From: an uncultured archaeon
GTDB taxonomy: Archaea > Thermoplasmatota > Thermoplasmata > Thermoplasmatales > Thermoplasmataceae
DNA length: 64,000 nucleotides
Direction of reading: 5' to 3'
NCBI GenBank assembly: GCA_000965745.1
Contig: CP009479.1
Coordinates: 754,457 to 818,456 of the forward strand
Shown: positions 9,269 through 26,207 of the stretch, in pieces
How positions within the stretch are numbered: position 1 is the stretch's first letter
Layout of the letters: each line of letters begins with the position of its first letter
Program-made: the position numbers and the translations under genes
Notes under the pieces: generated by a model
The model's database searches: none
What the model saw: the letters and a program-made list of their open reading frames with translations, nothing else
Told to the model about the DNA's origin: nothing

Positions 9269-10063
9269 ATGCACCTTATCGTAGCTTCCAGAGCAGATAA
9301 AGCAAGCATGTCTATGGAAAAATACATTCTGGAAAATGTTCCGTTCAGTGAACCTGATTCAGACAATGGCATGTATGAATATGGAAATTACCGCCTGAAA
9401 CTTATAAATGAAAGGCATCTCAATTATGATCAAATACCGGCAGAAGAAAAGGGTTTAACACCTGACATTTCAGACGTCACATTTCTCTCCAGCCATTCCT
9501 CATCGGCAGAAGTGAAATCTCTTACAGTGCATCCGACGGGTAATTTTGCAGAAGCCATTCTGGGTGGAAAAGAAAAGACTCTCTCGGTTAGCTCACCGGA
9601 GAAGATGACACCCGCCCTGAGGATGCTCGCGGAAGCATACGAAGGCAATGGTTTTGAGATCACACTGGAGTCAACGCATCATGGCCCGTACCTGGAGCTG
9701 CCAAATTACTACATAGAGATAGGAACAACCGAGAATGAGTGGAAGGATGAAGCAGCATTGAGAGCAGTAAAAGAGGCAGTTTTCACGGAACCCGACACCG
9801 CATCGGAAAACTTTGTTGGAATAGGCGGAGGCCATTATGTTCCCAAGATAACGAAGTACGTAATGGAAAACTCCGTTAATATAGGCCATCTTATTTCAAA
9901 GCACGACCAGGATACTATCACAAGGCAACAGATCGAGGAAGCTGTTGACAAGACCCCTAAGTGTCGTGGATTCGTCATGGACAGGAAGGGGTGCAGAGGT
10001 CCGGTAAGAGCCATTGTGAGGGAAATTTCAGACGATCGTGGTATTGAAATAATTAAATTATAA
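9269..10063 (+). CDS. dtdA: D-aminoacyl-tRNA deacylase (archaeal DtdA/GEK1 type)
   Basis: It hydrolyses D-amino acids wrongly attached to tRNA and so keeps D-residues out of protein. The 264-residue sequence shows the family hallmarks: the N-terminal LIVASRADKASM, FLSSHSSSAEVKSLTVHPTGN, the metal-site STHHGPYL, and ENFVGIGGGHYVPKIT near the C-terminal half. Length is normal. It is followed after a promoter region by the three-gene operon at 10226-13664 that I suspect handles epimerised or N-acylated amino acids. DtdA is common in archaea, so the adjacency alone proves nothing. Confidence 0.92.
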   Translation: MHLIVASRADKASMSMEKYILENVPFSEPDSDNGMYEYGNYRLKLINERHLNYDQIPAEEKGLTPDISDVTFLSSHSSSAEVKSLTVHPTGNFAEAILGGKEKTLSVSSPEKMTPALRMLAEAYEGNGFEITLESTHHGPYLELPNYYIEIGTTENEWKDEAALRAVKEAVFTEPDTASENFVGIGGGHYVPKITKYVMENSVNIGHLISKHDQDTITRQQIEEAVDKTPKCRGFVMDRKGCRGPVRAIVREISDDRGIEIIKL

Positions 10064-10168: not shown

Positions 10169-10176
10169 TTTAAATA
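10169..10176 (+). promoter_or_regulatory. TATA box of the PLP / DUF1611 / PP-loop operon
   Basis: TTTAAATA is centred about 53 nt before the ATG at 10226. Transcription would start near 10200, giving an unusual short 5' leader of about 25 nt that contains a hairpin (10202-10216) and a Shine-Dalgarno sequence. Confidence 0.45.
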
Positions 10177-10225: not shown

Positions 10226-11194
10226 ATGGAAGAAGTTGTAAGTGAAGAAGAACCCCCCGGCGGTACGCCTTTTTTCAAGGCTACCAGGCTAGGAAAACAG
10301 CTCAATTTGGACAATCTTTTTGTAAAATTCGAGGGAGCTAACACAACTGGAACACAGAAAGACAGGATTTCACGGCTTCATGTAAGGAATGCCATAGAAG
10401 GGGGTTTTGATACCGTCTCGGTTGCGACGTGCGGCAATTATGGGGCATCAATATCTCACTACGCTAGCTTGAATGGTGTCAGGAGTGTAGTGGGTATACC
10501 TGAAGGATATTCTAACTCAAGGCTGGATGAGATCAGGCGGAATGGCTCAGAGATTCTGACGATACCGGGCAGATACGAAGAGGCCGTTGAATACATGTCC
10601 CGGTTGGCAGGAGCTGAAGCTTGGTACGACTCCAATCCCGGATCTCCAAACGCGTCGGCTGATATTTCCGGTTACGAGACAATCGCCTATGAGATCGTGG
10701 AGCAGCTCGGCCACCCGCCTGAATTTGTGGCTGTACCCGTGGGAAACGGCACCACATTGTCTGGAATATTCTCAGGTTTCAGGCGCATGAAGCGTGACGG
10801 TGCAATAAGCGATTTGCCCAGAATGGTGGCATCAAGCACGTCCAACGGAAATCCTGTAGTTGATTCATGGAACCGGGGTTCCAGAAAGGTTATTGATCTC
10901 AACCCGGAAACTATTCATGAGACCGCTGTAAATGAGCCACTGATTGCATACAGGGCAATAGACGGGCAGAATGCGCTTGATGCCATATATGAAAGCAGGG
11001 GAATGGCCTTTTATGTGAGTGATTTTGACATGGTGCGTTATTCAAGAATAGCAGAAGATCTCGAAAGCCTGTCAGTTCTTCCAGCCTCTGCATCAACAAT
11101 TGCGGCAGCCCACAGCAGGCTGGGAAATTGCTGCAGAGGAAGCGAGATCGTGGTTGTACTCACCGGGAGGAATCAGATATGGACAACGCGGTAG
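10226..11194 (+). CDS. Threonine-synthase-like PLP enzyme (fold type II)
   Basis: A 322-residue beta-family PLP enzyme. The Schiff-base lysine is K45 in TGTQKDR; asparagine in ATCGNYGAS is the PLP-ring contact, and VGNGTTLSG is the phosphate-binding loop. The stretch SADISGYETIAYEI is typical of threonine synthases. It is shorter than a canonical ThrC (usually over 350 residues) and has no N-terminal zinc or helical extension, so the substrate is uncertain: it may be a threonine synthase, a dehydratase or a lyase/synthase of another amino acid. Its stop lies inside the next gene (16-nt overlap), and the three genes to 13664 form one coupled unit behind one promoter. The joint context favours a role in modifying an amino acid. 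Confidence 0.82.
   Translation: MEEVVSEEEPPGGTPFFKATRLGKQLNLDNLFVKFEGANTTGTQKDRISRLHVRNAIEGGFDTVSVATCGNYGASISHYASLNGVRSVVGIPEGYSNSRLDEIRRNGSEILTIPGRYEEAVEYMSRLAGAEAWYDSNPGSPNASADISGYETIAYEIVEQLGHPPEFVAVPVGNGTTLSGIFSGFRRMKRDGAISDLPRMVASSTSNGNPVVDSWNRGSRKVIDLNPETIHETAVNEPLIAYRAIDGQNALDAIYESRGMAFYVSDFDMVRYSRIAEDLESLSVLPASASTIAAAHSRLGNCCRGSEIVVVLTGRNQIWTTR
11165..11170 (+). promoter_or_regulatory. Shine-Dalgarno site that fixes the DUF1611 start
   Basis: GGGAGG lies 8 nt before the ATG at 11179, inside the end of the preceding gene. It supports that ATG over the upstream in-frame ATG at 11128. Confidence 0.6.
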
Positions 11195-12213
11195 TTCTAG
11201 CAGAAGGAGTATTTGGAACAACTTATGGAAAGACTGCCAACGGGCTCGTCAGATACAGCACAAGATTCCGGATCAAAGCGGTCATAGATTCAAGATTTGA
11301 AGGGAAGGATGCGGGAATGATCCTGTCCGGAAAAACAAGTGGGATTCCAGTGGTATCTGGAGTTGAACAGGGGCTGTTGCTCGGTGCGGACACGCTTGTC
11401 ATAGGTGTGGCCACGGATGGGGGTTTCATCCCGGAAACTTACAGGCAGTTTATCTCCGATGCCCTCAAGAGAGGTATGAATGTTGTCAGCGGCCTTCACG
11501 AGTTCATAGGGGATGATCAGGAATTTTCAGAGCTGGCTTTAAGCTCCGGCTCAAGAATCACAGACGTAAGGAGGTTGTTCAGGGACCTGAAGATACCTTT
11601 TACAGGAAAGATCGAGGAGGTCAGGGCCAAGAAAATTGCTATTCTTGGAACAGACAGTGCCATAGGCAAGAGGACGACCTCTGTTTTTCTCACGAGGGAG
11701 ATGAACATGGCAGGACACAAATCTGTTATGGTTGGGACAGGCCAGACTTCATGGATGCAGGGATTCAAGTATACCGTGGTAGTCGATTCAATGATCAATG
11801 ACTTCGTTCCGGGGGCTCTGGAAGAAATCACTTACCAAGCGTGGGTTAACGAGAAGCCTGAGTACATATTCATCGAGGGGCAGGGTTCAGTTCTTCATCC
11901 TGCGTATCCGGGCAGCTTCGAGATAATCGGGGCTTGCAGGCCGGACGGGATAATCCTTCAGCATGCCCCCGCAAGGAAATACTTCGACGGTTTTGGAAAA
12001 TACAGGATACCCGATTTAGGAAAGTACGTCAGAATACTGGAAGAGCTCTCGGACAGGCGGGTCATTGCTATTGCGCTCAATACTGAGAACATGACGCGGC
12101 ATGAAGTCATCAAGGAGAGAAATGCTCTTGAAAGAAGGTTCGGCATTCCAGTGTTTGACCCTCTTGGGAAACTCCTGAACGTTACCAGGGAAATCTCAGT
12201 AATGAACCTGTGA
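11179..12213 (+). CDS. DUF1611 family P-loop protein (DgcN-like)
   Basis: A 344-residue two-domain protein. The N-terminal part (VLAEGVFGTTYGKTANGL, IDSRFEGKDAG, GADTLVIGVATDGGFIP) matches the Rossmann-like N-domain of DUF1611. The C-terminal part begins with a Walker A motif, GTDSAIGKRTTS (about residues 157-168), and contains GTGQTSWMQG and FIEGQGSVLHPAY. From family knowledge, one studied branch (DgcN) is an N-acetyltransferase in D-glutamate catabolism, paired with an enolase-type racemase DgcA; other branches are uncharacterised. Here the partner is not an enolase-type epimerase but the PP-loop protein at 12210, whose GTG start overlaps this stop by 4 nt. The exact reaction is unknown. 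Confidence 0.83.
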   Translation: MDNAVVLAEGVFGTTYGKTANGLVRYSTRFRIKAVIDSRFEGKDAGMILSGKTSGIPVVSGVEQGLLLGADTLVIGVATDGGFIPETYRQFISDALKRGMNVVSGLHEFIGDDQEFSELALSSGSRITDVRRLFRDLKIPFTGKIEEVRAKKIAILGTDSAIGKRTTSVFLTREMNMAGHKSVMVGTGQTSWMQGFKYTVVVDSMINDFVPGALEEITYQAWVNEKPEYIFIEGQGSVLHPAYPGSFEIIGACRPDGIILQHAPARKYFDGFGKYRIPDLGKYVRILEELSDRRVIAIALNTENMTRHEVIKERNALERRFGIPVFDPLGKLLNVTREISVMNL

Positions 12214-13664
12214 TTATCTTGAAAAACACATACATGAGCAGAGTTGCCGCATTCAGATCATTCTCGGTTGGAGACATACGGATAAGGAAAAAGCAGATAT
12301 CGGGCAGAGTTTCTATATCCCACAAGGACGGGATGGAAGAGAATTTCAGGCTCATTTTCTCGTATTCCGAGGAAATAGAGGCAGACCTCAACACAGCGGG
12401 ACTGATGCTTACAATGCCCCTGATCAATTTTACATATTTTTCTGAGAAACTGATCCTTGATTATCCGGTATCTGGACAGGACAGAATACTACTGGAAAAA
12501 TTTCTGAAGATCAATGCCAGGGAAGTGTTTGTAAACAAGATATGCAGGAGAAGATACGAATTCTTCCTTCAGGAGGCAATTCCTTCCAAAAAGGAAATAA
12601 CCGAAGAAAATGCTGACGGCAGGACTGAGCTGGTCACCACTTCAACGTTCGAAGACACTTGTGCTGTAATATCGCATTCGAGCTCTGCGCTCATACTATC
12701 TTCAGGCGGAAAAGAGAGCCTCCTGACATTTGGAATGATGAAGGATCTGAATCCCAGGACGCATGCATATTTCTTCAACGAATCCGGAGGGCACTGGAGA
12801 GCGGCAAAGACTTCGTATGACTATTTCAGGGCAAATTATAAGGGCGTTTCGAAGGTCTGGTCAAATGTAGACAGGTTCTACAGATTCATGCTGGAGAGGC
12901 TGCCTGTTCTGAACATGGAGACTGTGAAAAAAAGGGCCGACACCTACCCGGTGCAGCTTTTCATCTTTCCGGTATACATATTTGCTGCAATTCCTCTTGT
13001 CAGAAAGCACAATATTGGAAATATCCTGATGGGGAACGAGTTTGACGATCCCAAGGACATGCCTTTGTACAGGGGAATCAGGCATTATTTCGGTGTGTTT
13101 GACCAGAGCAGCGACTTCATGGAGATGATGACCGGGTATTTCCAGGGAAAAGGAATATCCACAAGGTTATGGTCCGCTGTGTATCCCATATCGGGAACAG
13201 TGGTCGAGGACATACTTGTGAAAAGGTACCGGAACCTCTTCCTACAGCAAAGATCCTGCCACTCGTGCAGGTACGAGGAAGGGGCAATAAGGCCATGCGG
13301 CTCCTGCACAAAATGCCTCGGAGTGGCAATGTTCGTACTTGCAGCTGGCGGCAGTCCGGAGGAAATTCTGTATGACAGAACCTCAATCTCTGACCTTGAA
13401 AGGAACGTGAACGAGTCGAGGATGAGGCTGGATCCGGATGAACTCAGTTACCTGAAGAACGTTCTCTGGGGACACCCTGATAAGGGAAATGCAGATCACG
13501 TCCGGGGCATTCATATTCTTCCCGGTGAGTCGGAACCTTTGCTCCAGATTCCAGAGGACTTCAGGAGAGGTATCGGATTGATTTATGAACAATACTGCAA
13601 AGGCTATTACAGATTGGACGGTGAACACTGGGAAAAGGCGATAATTCAGAAATATGAATCCTGA
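12210..13664 (+). CDS. PP-loop ATP-pyrophosphatase protein resembling MurL glutamyl epimerase
   Basis: A 484-residue protein with an N-terminal region of about 150 residues, then a PP-loop, LILSSGGKESLLTFG (about residues 160-175, SGGKES in place of SGGKDS). Two Cys pairs follow near residues 349-371 in CHSCRYE and CGSCTKCLGVAMFVLAAGG. A PP-loop followed by a C-x2-C-x2-C block ahead of a hydrophobic helix resembles what I recall of MurL, the bacterial enzyme that epimerises the terminal L-Glu of a peptidoglycan precursor with ATP. Thermoplasmatales lack peptidoglycan, so the substrate must differ. GTG at 12210 overlaps the previous stop as GTGA; ATG at 12234 is an alternative. The family link is inferred by eye and could be wrong; PP-loop tRNA thiolases and amide ligases are alternatives. 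Confidence 0.7.
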   Translation: MIILKNTYMSRVAAFRSFSVGDIRIRKKQISGRVSISHKDGMEENFRLIFSYSEEIEADLNTAGLMLTMPLINFTYFSEKLILDYPVSGQDRILLEKFLKINAREVFVNKICRRRYEFFLQEAIPSKKEITEENADGRTELVTTSTFEDTCAVISHSSSALILSSGGKESLLTFGMMKDLNPRTHAYFFNESGGHWRAAKTSYDYFRANYKGVSKVWSNVDRFYRFMLERLPVLNMETVKKRADTYPVQLFIFPVYIFAAIPLVRKHNIGNILMGNEFDDPKDMPLYRGIRHYFGVFDQSSDFMEMMTGYFQGKGISTRLWSAVYPISGTVVEDILVKRYRNLFLQQRSCHSCRYEEGAIRPCGSCTKCLGVAMFVLAAGGSPEEILYDRTSISDLERNVNESRMRLDPDELSYLKNVLWGHPDKGNADHVRGIHILPGESEPLLQIPEDFRRGIGLIYEQYCKGYYRLDGEHWEKAIIQKYES

Positions 13665-14152
13665 ACTTCTTCAACATCCTTCTGTGTCCTGCATTCTGAA
13701 TAATCGTTCAGAAGATTCAGGTTCATTTCAAGAAACGTTGGCCCCCATTTGAACTTGGACATTATTTCGCTTGCCTCGTCCACAAGCCCCATTATGAACA
13801 ATGCAGACGATACTGCCTCCGAAGAGCTGAGTTTGCCGGGCTTTCCATAGTTGACGGGATTTGCAGGTACTAACACAGGAAGGAGCCTTTCCTCCTGCCC
13901 CCTTATGTCCTTAACCGAGTCAATCCTGTTCCAGGAACCTTCTATGATGCAGATCCCCTTTCTCCTGTACAGCTTCACGTCATCTCTGAGAAGGTACCTG
14001 TCGGCAAATGGAGTAAGCATAAGTGAACTCTTGCACCTCCTCAAGTTTACACGTTCCGCCAGGTTGAACCTCTCCAGCTTTTTCATGGTGGATTTCTTGG
14101 GATCGTCCTGTCCCATGTAGACGAAGTAAACCTTTCGGGGTCTTGGAATCAA
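13646..14152 (-). CDS. tsr3: rRNA aminocarboxypropyltransferase Tsr3 (DUF367)
   Basis: It transfers the 3-amino-3-carboxypropyl group of SAM to a hypermodified base of small-subunit rRNA. Family landmarks in the 168-residue protein are YMGQDDPKKST, LTPFADRYLL, the SAM-site IIEGSWNRID, LLPVLVPANPVNYGKPGKL and FKWGPTFLEMN. The start is a TTG at 14152, needed to include the conserved first strand (KVYFVY); the next ATG would remove it. The 3' end overlaps the convergent PP-loop gene by 19 nt. It is an isolated ribosome-biogenesis gene. Confidence 0.92.
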   Translation of the reverse strand: MIPRPRKVYFVYMGQDDPKKSTMKKLERFNLAERVNLRRCKSSLMLTPFADRYLLRDDVKLYRRKGICIIEGSWNRIDSVKDIRGQEERLLPVLVPANPVNYGKPGKLSSSEAVSSALFIMGLVDEASEIMSKFKWGPTFLEMNLNLLNDYSECRTQKDVEEVQDSYF

Positions 14153-21867: not shown

Positions 21868-21887
21868 TATATACGTCGTGGTATATA
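21868..21887. promoter_or_regulatory. Palindrome over the TATA box of the first alcohol dehydrogenase
   Basis: TATATAC-gtcgtg-GTATATA is a perfect 7-bp inverted repeat. Its right arm is also the TATA element of the gene starting at 21905. A dimer bound here would block TBP, so it looks like a repressor operator. Confidence 0.45.
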
Positions 21888-21904
21888 TTAACACGGGTGC
21901 TATT

Positions 21905-22939
21905 TTGAGAGCAGTCAGGCTGGAAGATTATGGTAAGAATGTTGTCGTCAGGGAAGTGCCCGAACCGGCTGTGGAACGGAATGACGATGTAGTCGTAAAA
22001 GTACAGGCAGCGGGTGTCTGCAGGACAGATCTCCACATCATCGGCGGAATGATGAAAGAAGCAACGGGCAATCCCGGGCTTCCGTTCACATTGGGGCATG
22101 AGAATGTGGGAACGGTCCATGCCAGGGGCAGCGGAGTAAGCGGGCTGGAACTTGGGGACCAGGTCATTTTGCATCCCCAGATCAGCTGTGGAATATGCCT
22201 CCCCTGCAGAAACGGAGACGACATGCATTGCGTGCATTCCAGATCCCCGGGGCTGGATGGAACAGATGGAGGCTTCGCGGAGTATGTGAAGGCTTCGGAA
22301 AGATCGGTTGTCAAGCTCAAGAAAGGCACTGATCCGGTTGAAGTCGCACCACTAGCAGATGCAGGAGTGACAGTTTATCATGCAGTACGGAAAATACTTC
22401 CTTATGCCAGGCCGGATTCATATATAGCAGTCATAGGCCTGGGGGCGCTGGGCCAGATTGCGGTCCAGCTCCTGAAGAACATGACGAATTCAAACATAAT
22501 AGGGATTGACAAATCGGAACAAAAGCTTGGAATGGCTGAAAAACTGGGGGCGAACTGGGTTTTCCCTTCAGGCGATGATGGTGGCGTGAAAGAAGCGTTG
22601 AAGGTGACAGGCGCAAAAGGTGCAGACATTGTAATGGATTTTGTGGGTGAGAACAACACACCAGCGAGTGCTTTATCCATGATCGGCAGAGGGGGAATAT
22701 ATTCAGTAGTTGGCTATGGGGGCGAAATCAACCTCAAGACCCTTCAACTCGTTGGAATGGAGCTTTCTGTGCTGGGAAACCTCGTGGGAACATACAGGGA
22801 CTTGGTAGACCTCATGTCCCTATATTATCAGGGTAAGGTGAAAATCGAGACCAGAACATTCTCCCTTGATGATGCATCAACGGCACTTTCCGAACTCTCT
22901 AGGGGAGAAATAAGAGGCAGGGCTGTCCTTTTGCCCTGA
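21905..22939 (+). CDS. Zinc-dependent alcohol dehydrogenase (MDR family)
   Basis: A 344-residue medium-chain dehydrogenase. The catalytic-zinc ligands are Cys in GVCRTDLH and His-Glu in LGHENVG; the structural-zinc lobe has all four cysteines in CGICLPCRNGDDMHC. The NAD-binding Rossmann motif is GLGALGQIAV, followed by the acidic GIDKSEQK, suggesting NAD preference. The substrate is not evident. I chose the TTG at 21905 because the TATA element (21881-21889) lies inside the longer frame that begins at GTG 21878. It is convergent with the GMC oxidoreductase gene and may belong to the same alcohol/sugar oxidation set. Confidence 0.9.
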   Translation: MRAVRLEDYGKNVVVREVPEPAVERNDDVVVKVQAAGVCRTDLHIIGGMMKEATGNPGLPFTLGHENVGTVHARGSGVSGLELGDQVILHPQISCGICLPCRNGDDMHCVHSRSPGLDGTDGGFAEYVKASERSVVKLKKGTDPVEVAPLADAGVTVYHAVRKILPYARPDSYIAVIGLGALGQIAVQLLKNMTNSNIIGIDKSEQKLGMAEKLGANWVFPSGDDGGVKEALKVTGAKGADIVMDFVGENNTPASALSMIGRGGIYSVVGYGGEINLKTLQLVGMELSVLGNLVGTYRDLVDLMSLYYQGKVKIETRTFSLDDASTALSELSRGEIRGRAVLLP

Positions 22940-22987: not shown

Positions 22988-24475
22988 CTACTGCGGTTTG
23001 AGGTAACCGCACCTTTTTGCAAGGTAATCTGCCAGAATGTCTGCCATTGCGTAGATAGTCAGCGAAGGATTGGCGTCTATGATCGAGGGAAACACGCTGG
23101 CATCACAGGCAAAGAGCCTGCCCACGTCATGAGATTCAAGGTTTGAGTCCACAACAGATTTGTTCCGGTCTTCTCCCGCAGCACACGTTCCCTGTGGATG
23201 GTGTGATATGTATATTGCGCCGTATGTCTCTTCAGCACCTGCTGCGTAAAATGCCTCATCCACAAGTTTTCGTGCTCTTGAGAACTTGTCCCGGTCACTG
23301 CCGGTCACTGGTTTGTGGTACTTTACATTCCCGCCTTCATCAATGAATATCCTGCCATCATTGTGATCGTGTATGGCAATAAGGACCCCTGCCATATTCT
23401 TGTAATGCTTGAGTGCATTGGTCAGCTCTTTCCCAATCATTGGCCTTGAATCATTGTCCAGAATCACCTCGGAAAAACCAAGAGGTCCATCCATGATTTC
23501 TGACATTTCAAGTATGAAACCGCCGTTCTTTTCGAGCGAGAATTCAGTTACGTGTGCAGATAAGGGATGAATAAGCCAGTTGTTCAATGTCTCTTTGAAC
23601 TTGCCGAAGACGAAAGTATTGGTATTTACTGCCATGTTCTCCCCTATCCTCATTGAACTCCCAGAATAGTCCGCCAGCTCCCTTATTTTGGATTTTAGAA
23701 GTAGCTGCGGTGTCTGGAGGGCGCCGGCACTCACAATAACGATCTTAGCCGTGATCTGTTTGATCTCACCATTGTTGCTGTATTTTACGCCATACGCCTC
23801 TAATGGCTTTCCAGAGCTGCTCTTTCGAATAAGAACCTCTTCAACAAAGGAGTTTTGGTATAGTGTAAGCCCGTCATAGATTCCCGGGATGATGTATGAA
23901 AGAAGGCTTCCTTTCTTTGACCCCGTGGGACATCCAAAGATGCAGCCATTGTGATCACAATTCTGGTCTATGTATGCATTCACTGCCTCGATTTCAATTC
24001 CAAGCTTTGAATACCCTTCCTTGAGCCTCTGCACTCCAAGGTCCCAGTCCGTGTATTTCCTTACTCCAGTCTCACCTTCGACTCTATCGTAGTGACTCTC
24101 GACATCCCTGTATGAAAAAGGCTCGGAATTTTCATTCTTCAATCCCGTGGCATTTGACCAGTCGTCGAAGTTCTCGTTTGGAGCCCTGTGCGCCACGGCG
24201 GTGAATATAGTTGTGCCTCCGCCAACTACTCTCCCTCCACCGAGATTTATCTCATCAACACTTTTGCCCCCATTCAGCTCGAAGTTTGTTGTCCATTGTG
24301 GTTTCCACCAGAGTTTCCTTATGGCATCGAGTTCGAATCTGTTGAACTGGTCACTGTTGTACGCACTTCCAGTGTCAAGGAGCGCAACTTTTAGCCCTGC
24401 CTTTGTCAATTTATATGCGACAGATCCTCCGCCTGCGCCTGATCCAACAACAATTACATCATAATCATAACTCAA
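22988..24475 (-). CDS. GMC-type FAD oxidoreductase (gluconate/sugar dehydrogenase large subunit-like)
   Basis: A 495-residue flavoprotein of the glucose-methanol-choline family. The FAD dinucleotide motif is VVGSGAGGGSVAYKL at residues 9-23, GGGRVVGGGT is the second flavin motif, and the C-terminal active-site region contains HHPQGTCAAG and DASVFPSIIDANPSLT. It oxidises an alcohol or sugar hydroxyl. The gene follows its likely small subunit (24491) by 15 nt and begins with TTG at 24475, which keeps the intact N-terminal strand. No Tat or Sec signal is visible on either subunit, and no cytochrome c subunit is encoded nearby. The electron acceptor is therefore unclear. Confidence 0.9.
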   Translation of the reverse strand: MSYDYDVIVVGSGAGGGSVAYKLTKAGLKVALLDTGSAYNSDQFNRFELDAIRKLWWKPQWTTNFELNGGKSVDEINLGGGRVVGGGTTIFTAVAHRAPNENFDDWSNATGLKNENSEPFSYRDVESHYDRVEGETGVRKYTDWDLGVQRLKEGYSKLGIEIEAVNAYIDQNCDHNGCIFGCPTGSKKGSLLSYIIPGIYDGLTLYQNSFVEEVLIRKSSSGKPLEAYGVKYSNNGEIKQITAKIVIVSAGALQTPQLLLKSKIRELADYSGSSMRIGENMAVNTNTFVFGKFKETLNNWLIHPLSAHVTEFSLEKNGGFILEMSEIMDGPLGFSEVILDNDSRPMIGKELTNALKHYKNMAGVLIAIHDHNDGRIFIDEGGNVKYHKPVTGSDRDKFSRARKLVDEAFYAAGAEETYGAIYISHHPQGTCAAGEDRNKSVVDSNLESHDVGRLFACDASVFPSIIDANPSLTIYAMADILADYLAKRCGYLKPQ

Positions 24476-25187: not shown

Positions 25188-26207
25188 ATGAAAGCTGCGC
25201 AACTTGTATCTTATAGAAAACCTCTGGAGATTAGGGAAGTAGATACACCAGAACCGTCAGGAGAACAGGTTCTGGTAAGGATTGCAGGTGCAGGTGTATG
25301 CCACAGTGATCTTCATCTCATCGAAGGAATGTTTCCACTTCCGTTCCTCCCACTCACTCTGGGCCATGAAAATACCGGGTATGTCGAGAATATCGGAAGC
25401 AGAGTAACCGGATTCGAACAGGGCGCTCCAGTCGCCGTTTACGGCGCTTGGAACAGGAGAAGTGATCGGTTCAGCTGGAAAGGTGAAGGCAATCTTTCCA
25501 ACGTCAACGACTGGGTTGGAGTAGGGCATAATGGCGGTTACGCTGAGTATCTGCTGGTTCCCACCTACAAATATCTGCTTCCCCTTAACGAGATAGATCC
25601 TGTCCGCGCGACGCCTCTAGTTGACGCTGGTCTCACTTCATACAGGGCTATTAACAAGCTCAGATCAAATGTCTACCCCGGGAGCACCGTAGTGTTAATA
25701 GGGATAGGCGGGCAAGGGCAGTATGCAGTGCAATATTCAAAGCTGATGCTGCCTCAGGTGAAAACAGTGGCAATTGACATAGACGACAGCAAACTTGCAG
25801 CAGCCAGGAAACTGGGGGCAGACGAGATTATAAACAGCGCTTGCGACAACCCGCTGAAGATCATCAAGGATATTACCAACGACGAAGGATGCCAGGGAGT
25901 GGTAGATTTCGTCGGGTCCTCGGAAACAATGAATATGGCCTACTCACTTCTCGGGAGACAGGGGAAGATGGTAATAGTCGGCTTGAATGGGGGGAAACTG
26001 GAGATTGTGCCTGACATGTTGGTCAATGAAGCCGAAGTTACAACCAGCAACTGGGGGACCATGCTCGAGTTGAGTGAAGTAATATCTCTTGCAGAAAGCG
26101 GAAAACTGAAAATCCAGTTTGAAAAAATGGGACTGGACAGTGTGAATGAAGCTCTTGAAAAACTTTCCTCCGGCTCGGTGAATGGCAGGATGATACTTAC
26201 TCCGTGA
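25188..26207 (+). CDS. Alcohol/sugar dehydrogenase, MDR family, without structural zinc
   Basis: A 339-residue medium-chain dehydrogenase. Catalytic-zinc residues are present (GVCHSDLH and LGHENTG), and the Rossmann motif is GIGGQGQYAV followed by AIDIDDSK, consistent with NAD. The lobe that normally binds the structural zinc (C-x2-C-x2-C-x7-C) is replaced by GAWNRRSDRFSWKGEGNLS, with no cysteine. Members lacking this zinc are known. GGAGG at 25176-25180 is a clear Shine-Dalgarno. The gene is divergent from the GMC operon across a promoter region of about 190 bp. The substrate is unknown. Confidence 0.9.
   Translation: MKAAQLVSYRKPLEIREVDTPEPSGEQVLVRIAGAGVCHSDLHLIEGMFPLPFLPLTLGHENTGYVENIGSRVTGFEQGAPVAVYGAWNRRSDRFSWKGEGNLSNVNDWVGVGHNGGYAEYLLVPTYKYLLPLNEIDPVRATPLVDAGLTSYRAINKLRSNVYPGSTVVLIGIGGQGQYAVQYSKLMLPQVKTVAIDIDDSKLAAARKLGADEIINSACDNPLKIIKDITNDEGCQGVVDFVGSSETMNMAYSLLGRQGKMVIVGLNGGKLEIVPDMLVNEAEVTTSNWGTMLELSEVISLAESGKLKIQFEKMGLDSVNEALEKLSSGSVNGRMILTP

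Follow-up and report, generated by a model that had tools for sequence, protein, structure and literature searches.

What reaction could be carried out, in an archaeon, by three overlapping genes, the last of which encodes a predicted distant relative of the bacterial epimerase MurL? The question is raised by positions 10226-13664 of the window, the whole 64,000-nt stretch analysed here, which is part of a 2.23-Mb single-contig archaeal genome (all coordinates are positions in the window). Open reading frame (ORF) calls confirmed the arrangement described in an earlier sequence-only reading of this DNA: a fold-type II pyridoxal phosphate (PLP) enzyme (gene 1, 10226-11194, + strand, ATG start, 322 residues) overlaps by 16 nt a DgcN-related DUF1611 protein (gene 2, 11179-12213, + strand, ATG, 344 residues), which in turn overlaps by 4 nt a PP-loop protein with a cysteine cluster (gene 3, hereafter P3, 12210-13664, + strand, GTG, 484 residues). 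The start of P3 is uncertain by about 8 codons, lying at the GTG at 12210 or at an ATG at 12234. The three-gene run is gapless and is preceded by a gap of 162 bp to the upstream gene; a TATA-like box, read from the sequence (TTTAAATA, 10169-10176, + strand), presumably marks a single promoter. We conclude that PLP-DUF1611-P3 is a real operon, that it is widespread and that its ATP-loop protein is related to MurL, and propose by analogy, with a probability of roughly 0.45, that the operon is a module for the ATP-driven stereo-inversion of an N-acylated, probably acidic, amino acid.

A scan of 84,980 GTDB species genomes yielded 310 P3 relatives. In the best 80 loci, on which locus counts are based, DUF1611 lies immediately upstream of P3 in 69, the full PLP-DUF1611-P3 order is found in 55, and the median intergenic spacing is -4 bp. 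Since gene order and near-zero spacing recur in several archaeal phyla, the arrangement is not due to chance: it is a conserved archaeal operon and no local oddity, and the co-occurrence of the three genes elsewhere, to which the sequence-only reading had tied its model, is borne out. P3 relatives were found in genomes or metagenome-assembled genomes (MAGs) of Thermoplasmatota, Thermococcales, Bathyarchaeia, Korarchaeia, Thermofilaceae, Nitrososphaeria and Methanomassiliicoccales, and also, in bacteria and unaccompanied by DUF1611, in Nitrosomonas and one Myxococcales MAG; many hosts being MAGs, single taxon labels should be treated cautiously. No description of the operon was found in the open-access literature on DUF1611 or MurL in archaea.

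Within the order of the window genome, which includes Thermoplasma-like and Aciduliprofundum-like genomes, P3 is present in 91 of 117 genomes (40 of the 51 good ones), and DUF1611 in all 51 good genomes. All 21 neighbourhoods inspected in the order contain the DUF1611-P3 pair, and in 18 of them the PLP gene adjoins it; several further families of the wider phylum also have P3, mostly as PLP-DUF1611-P3. The PLP family scores above its cut-off in 80 of the 91 genomes with P3 versus 3 of the 26 without; since entire families have one state in common, these counts are not independent observations. Two of these three P3-less genomes show a partial DUF1611 match, consistent with a contig end. The PLP gene lies two genes before P3 in the 55 loci mentioned above, but is missing from some P3-bearing genomes. 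The window DUF1611 protein is 44-66% identical to P3-linked DUF1611 proteins (53-54% to those in the operons of Thermococcales and Korarchaeia), versus 34-37% to those of f3, a P3-less family of the order which we take to be Aciduliprofundum-like, and in a midpoint-rooted DUF1611 tree f3 forms a separate clade with support 1.0. Distances in the DUF1611 and P3 trees are correlated (r 0.83), although some correlation is predicted by shared ancestry alone.

Taken alone, the window P3 matches no family in Pfam or NCBIfam and no PDB sequence, and a profile of 24 relatives produced only chance-level matches to PDB sequences. A weak Streptomyces match (E 0.1), obtained by tblastn of P3 against plasmids, is antisense to a HAD-like ORF and was rejected as chance. 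The Xanthomonas MurL model of NCBIfam weakly matches two of the 24 relatives (E 0.0076) and, when whole genomes are scanned with it, singles out P3 in nine members of the order and in three genomes outside it (G467, E 5.8e-5; G462 and G471, E 0.016 and 0.055). For profile comparison by hhalign, 74 P3 proteins were set against 9 MurL proteins from gammaproteobacteria, 4 of them above the family cut-off and several encoded, as judged by eye, next to a MurD-like gene. The alignment extends from the PP-loop to the cysteine cluster, with E 1.5e-7 over 203 columns; the value is 3.2e-6 when full length is forced and 1.8e-7 with a second alignment, as against at least 0.07 for reversed or 20 column-permuted MurL profiles and at least 0.1 for six unrelated families.

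About 20 positions are conserved across P3 and MurL, GGK.S, E277, S322, C350, C363, C366 and C369 among them. The PP-loop of P3 (SSGGKES, residues 164-170, 12699-12719, + strand) is nearly invariant and equivalent to MurL GGGKDS, and the cysteine cluster, running from SC (349-350) to CGSCTKC (363-369; 13254-13316, + strand), is a presumed zinc site whose four cysteines are common to MurL. AlphaFold models of P3 and MurL, with predicted local distance difference test (pLDDT) scores of 91 and 89.5, were compared by element order, not by superposition: the order is the same in both, including an N-terminal beta-beta-beta-alpha domain ahead of the PP-loop. In fold comparison with the PDB, QatC ranks first for both proteins and QueC follows closely.

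By profile and predicted architecture, P3 is a distant MurL relative, which shares with MurL a homologous PP-loop and C-terminal cysteine cluster, a predicted two-domain layout and a similar length, but is distinct from MurL itself; the MurL likeness noticed from sequence holds to this extent and no further. Against the 700-bit cut-off of the NCBIfam MurL family NF041275, P3 proteins of the order reach at most 13.6 bits and the best elsewhere 19.3 bits. The C-terminal motif KPFECVG, found in 9 of 9 MurL proteins, is seen in none of the 74 P3; these are characterized by NESGxHW (NESGGHW in the window protein, residues 190-196, 12777-12797, + strand), present in 72 of 74 P3 and in none of the 9 MurL. 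MurL is paired with MurD2, while no such pairing is found for P3, whose neighbour is DUF1611 in the 69 loci counted above. The settings also differ: MurL belongs to bacterial cell-wall synthesis, whereas the archaeal P3 hosts have no peptidoglycan.

MurL has been reported to invert an acylated Glu in a one-way reaction, requiring ATP and releasing AMP (PMC8788868, PMC5808125), from L to D only (PMC8788868); it was presented as the first epimerase with ATP as co-substrate, and said to be without known domains (PMC8788868, PMC5808125). For the archaeal operon we infer a reaction, its substrate, its direction (L to D or D to L) and the PLP and acyl-transfer steps as follows. The DgcN-like DUF1611 protein would acylate the free amino group of an amino acid, and P3 would adenylate its alpha-carboxylate using ATP; the carboxyl-adenylate would acidify the alpha-proton, making inversion at C-alpha possible, and adenylate hydrolysis would render the inversion one-way. 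The PLP enzyme would supply or remove the free amino acid. We regard carboxylate adenylation by P3 as likely. That an N-acyl amino acid is inverted, for which the argument is one of analogy, is moderately likely, because of the known MurL reaction and of the recurrence of D-amino-acid neighbours.

Gene 2 features both DUF1611 domains, PF07755 (E 2.6e-62, 210 bits) and PF17396 (E 5.4e-26, 91 bits), and a P-loop, GTDSAIGKRT (11647-11676, + strand); among solved structures it has a homologue in 7xrj (E 7e-37), which we take to be a DgcN. In the DgcN/DgcA pathway for D-glutamate, a DUF1611 protein works together with an enolase-type epimerase (cf. PMC12363236). The window operon resembles it in placing a DUF1611 protein with a P-loop beside a putative epimerase, and differs from it in the MurL-like instead of enolase-like partner, in the extra PLP gene and in the sub-threshold DgcN score. 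No enolase-type DgcA is found in the window operon, and the f3 epimerase, used as a query, has no match at 1e-30 in the window genome. Most genomes of the P3-less family f3 carry an orthologue of this enolase epimerase, near DUF1611 in at least three inspected loci: for this reason P3 may take the place of the epimerase, as had been conjectured from sequence. A possible functional equivalent of P3 would then be the L-Ala-D/L-Glu epimerase (AEE, a YcjG-like enolase), which has an unrelated fold and uses no ATP. The replacement is, however, not a strict one, because the two coexist in some lineages.

The genes around the operon point to D-amino-acid chemistry, as does the DgcN-like protein itself. 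The next gene upstream in the window, probably on its own transcript, encodes DTD2, a D-aminoacyl-tRNA deacylase (9269-10063, + strand); in 16 of the 80 loci the operon has DTD2 nearby, which may reflect the local synteny of one lineage. In two lineages, an AEE-like enolase and an M14 peptidase lie beside the operon; this combination of a dipeptide-epimerase-like enolase and an M14 peptidase, reminiscent of a pair for wall-peptide salvage, was noted at the archaeal loci L111, L114, L115, L116, L128, L130, L131 and L146. In Nitrosomonas MAG_42 (L157:4995-9027), genes for a D-Ala-D-Ala-ligase-like ATP-grasp protein, a GNAT and a diaminopimelate (DAP)-epimerase-like protein come after P3 on its strand, an apparent gene set of bacteria of which we know of no description.

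In about 34 of the 80 loci P3 has a GNAT gene next to it, whose orientation differs by lineage: in some it lies on the P3 strand, in others it is convergent with P3. Same-strand GNAT genes overlapping the 3' end of P3 were observed in Thermococcales, Korarchaeia, Thermofilaceae and Nitrososphaeria (GNAT genes lie 3' of P3, on its strand, at L108, L112, L118, L121, L125, L129, L136 and L151). As at least two apparent subfamilies are involved, the GNATs were not counted as one conserved partner.

Several points weigh against stereo-inversion. Gene 2 scores 170 bits, far short of the cut-off of 480 for the NCBIfam DgcN equivalog; a GNAT beside P3 could be the actual acylating enzyme. Identity between P3 and MurL is about 16% and, given this low value and the different motifs confined to each family, the catalytic base cannot be transferred from MurL. 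Some lineages have an enolase epimerase next to P3, and we know of no D-amino-acid requirement in these archaea. Finally, QueC and QatC, whose chemistry is that of amides or nitriles, use the same fold.

This last point introduces the main rival, amide or nitrile formation as in QueC and QatC, which the fold allows equally. P3 would adenylate the carboxylate of an N-acyl amino acid and pass it to ammonia or an amine, giving an amide, a dipeptide or a similar solute, with the DgcN-like and GNAT neighbours capping the amino end. The best PDB fold matches of P3 are QatC (5e-6), QueC and Cap9, which resemble it in fold and in the presumed zinc site, the four-cysteine cluster being QueC-like, and the presence of a GNAT next to P3 in many lineages would fit as well. 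We consider this possibility doubtful, since MurL yields the same fold matches and, by profile, MurL is a closer match to P3 than QueC is: the QueC profile aligns with P3 over 46 columns, the ATP loop only (E 2.3e-6), and with MurL over 49 (E 8e-4). Moreover, a genuine QueC is encoded by a separate gene of the same genome, and D-amino-acid enzymes recur near P3. Pfam QueC has no match in the window P3, and matches 4 of the 24 relatives weakly (best 0.0083). P3 did not fall into a tRNA-thiolation or amide-ligase family, the outcome that the sequence-only reading had named as adverse to it; its fold resembles QatC and QueC, as that of MurL does. Two seemingly distant P3 genes, L099:2916-4151 and L100:437-1855, turned out to be QueC/DUF6395-like and were dropped; their products are PP-loop proteins of about 410-470 residues from Thermoplasmatota, distant kin of P3.

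A second alternative is a directional version of the stereo-inversion module, and compatible with it: the operon would be catabolic, acetylating D-amino acids (such as D-Glu, whether scavenged from bacterial wall peptides or left by proofreading) and converting the N-acyl-D form into the N-acyl-L form at the cost of ATP. The AEE and M14 peptidase genes found beside the operon, which resemble a wall-peptide salvage set, and the upstream DTD2 would agree with this. We regard it as unlikely: MurL is reported to act from L to D only (PMC8788868), the window operon has no deacylase gene, and DTD2 is common in archaea, so that its position may be plain synteny.

The enzyme opening the operon is threonine-synthase-like, as originally noticed: gene 1 has a PALP fold (PF00291, E 3e-56), with a presumed PLP lysine, K45 in GTQKDR (10358-10360, + strand), and scores 426 bits against NCBIfam PRK06381 'threonine synthase', whose cut-off is 266. 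That it is a plain threonine synthase, in an operon for amino-acid biosynthesis unrelated to stereochemistry, is nonetheless quite improbable, for although it exceeds this cut-off and its nearest solved structures are threonine synthases, the window genome encodes three other proteins that pass a threonine-synthase cut-off (604, 488 and 243 bits), and gene 1 tracks P3 in the order.

Two other features of the window were recorded. Convergent with P3 lies a TSR3/DUF367 rRNA aminocarboxypropyltransferase gene (13646-14152, - strand); of 21 relatives in the order, 19 have it in this position, which is probably no more than synteny. Farther away, zinc-type alcohol-dehydrogenase-like genes (21878-22939 and 25188-26207) were seen by eye around a GMC-type oxidoreductase gene (22988-24475, - strand).

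The stereo-inversion reading leads us to suggest, tentatively, that peptidoglycan-free archaea have an undescribed, widely conserved pathway of N-acylation and ATP-driven, MurL-type epimerisation, which would make or remove a D-amino acid. Because the operon spans several phyla, and its thermophilic members should express well, D-amino-acid use in archaea becomes directly testable. Assigning both MurL and a large family of archaeal proteins to the QueC/QatC fold group offers a structural frame for MurL chemistry, and a second, wall-free setting for it. If the pathway is real, it would imply that archaea devoid of peptidoglycan have a metabolite or a cell component based on a D-amino acid, and MurL chemistry would have an evolutionary setting outside wall synthesis.

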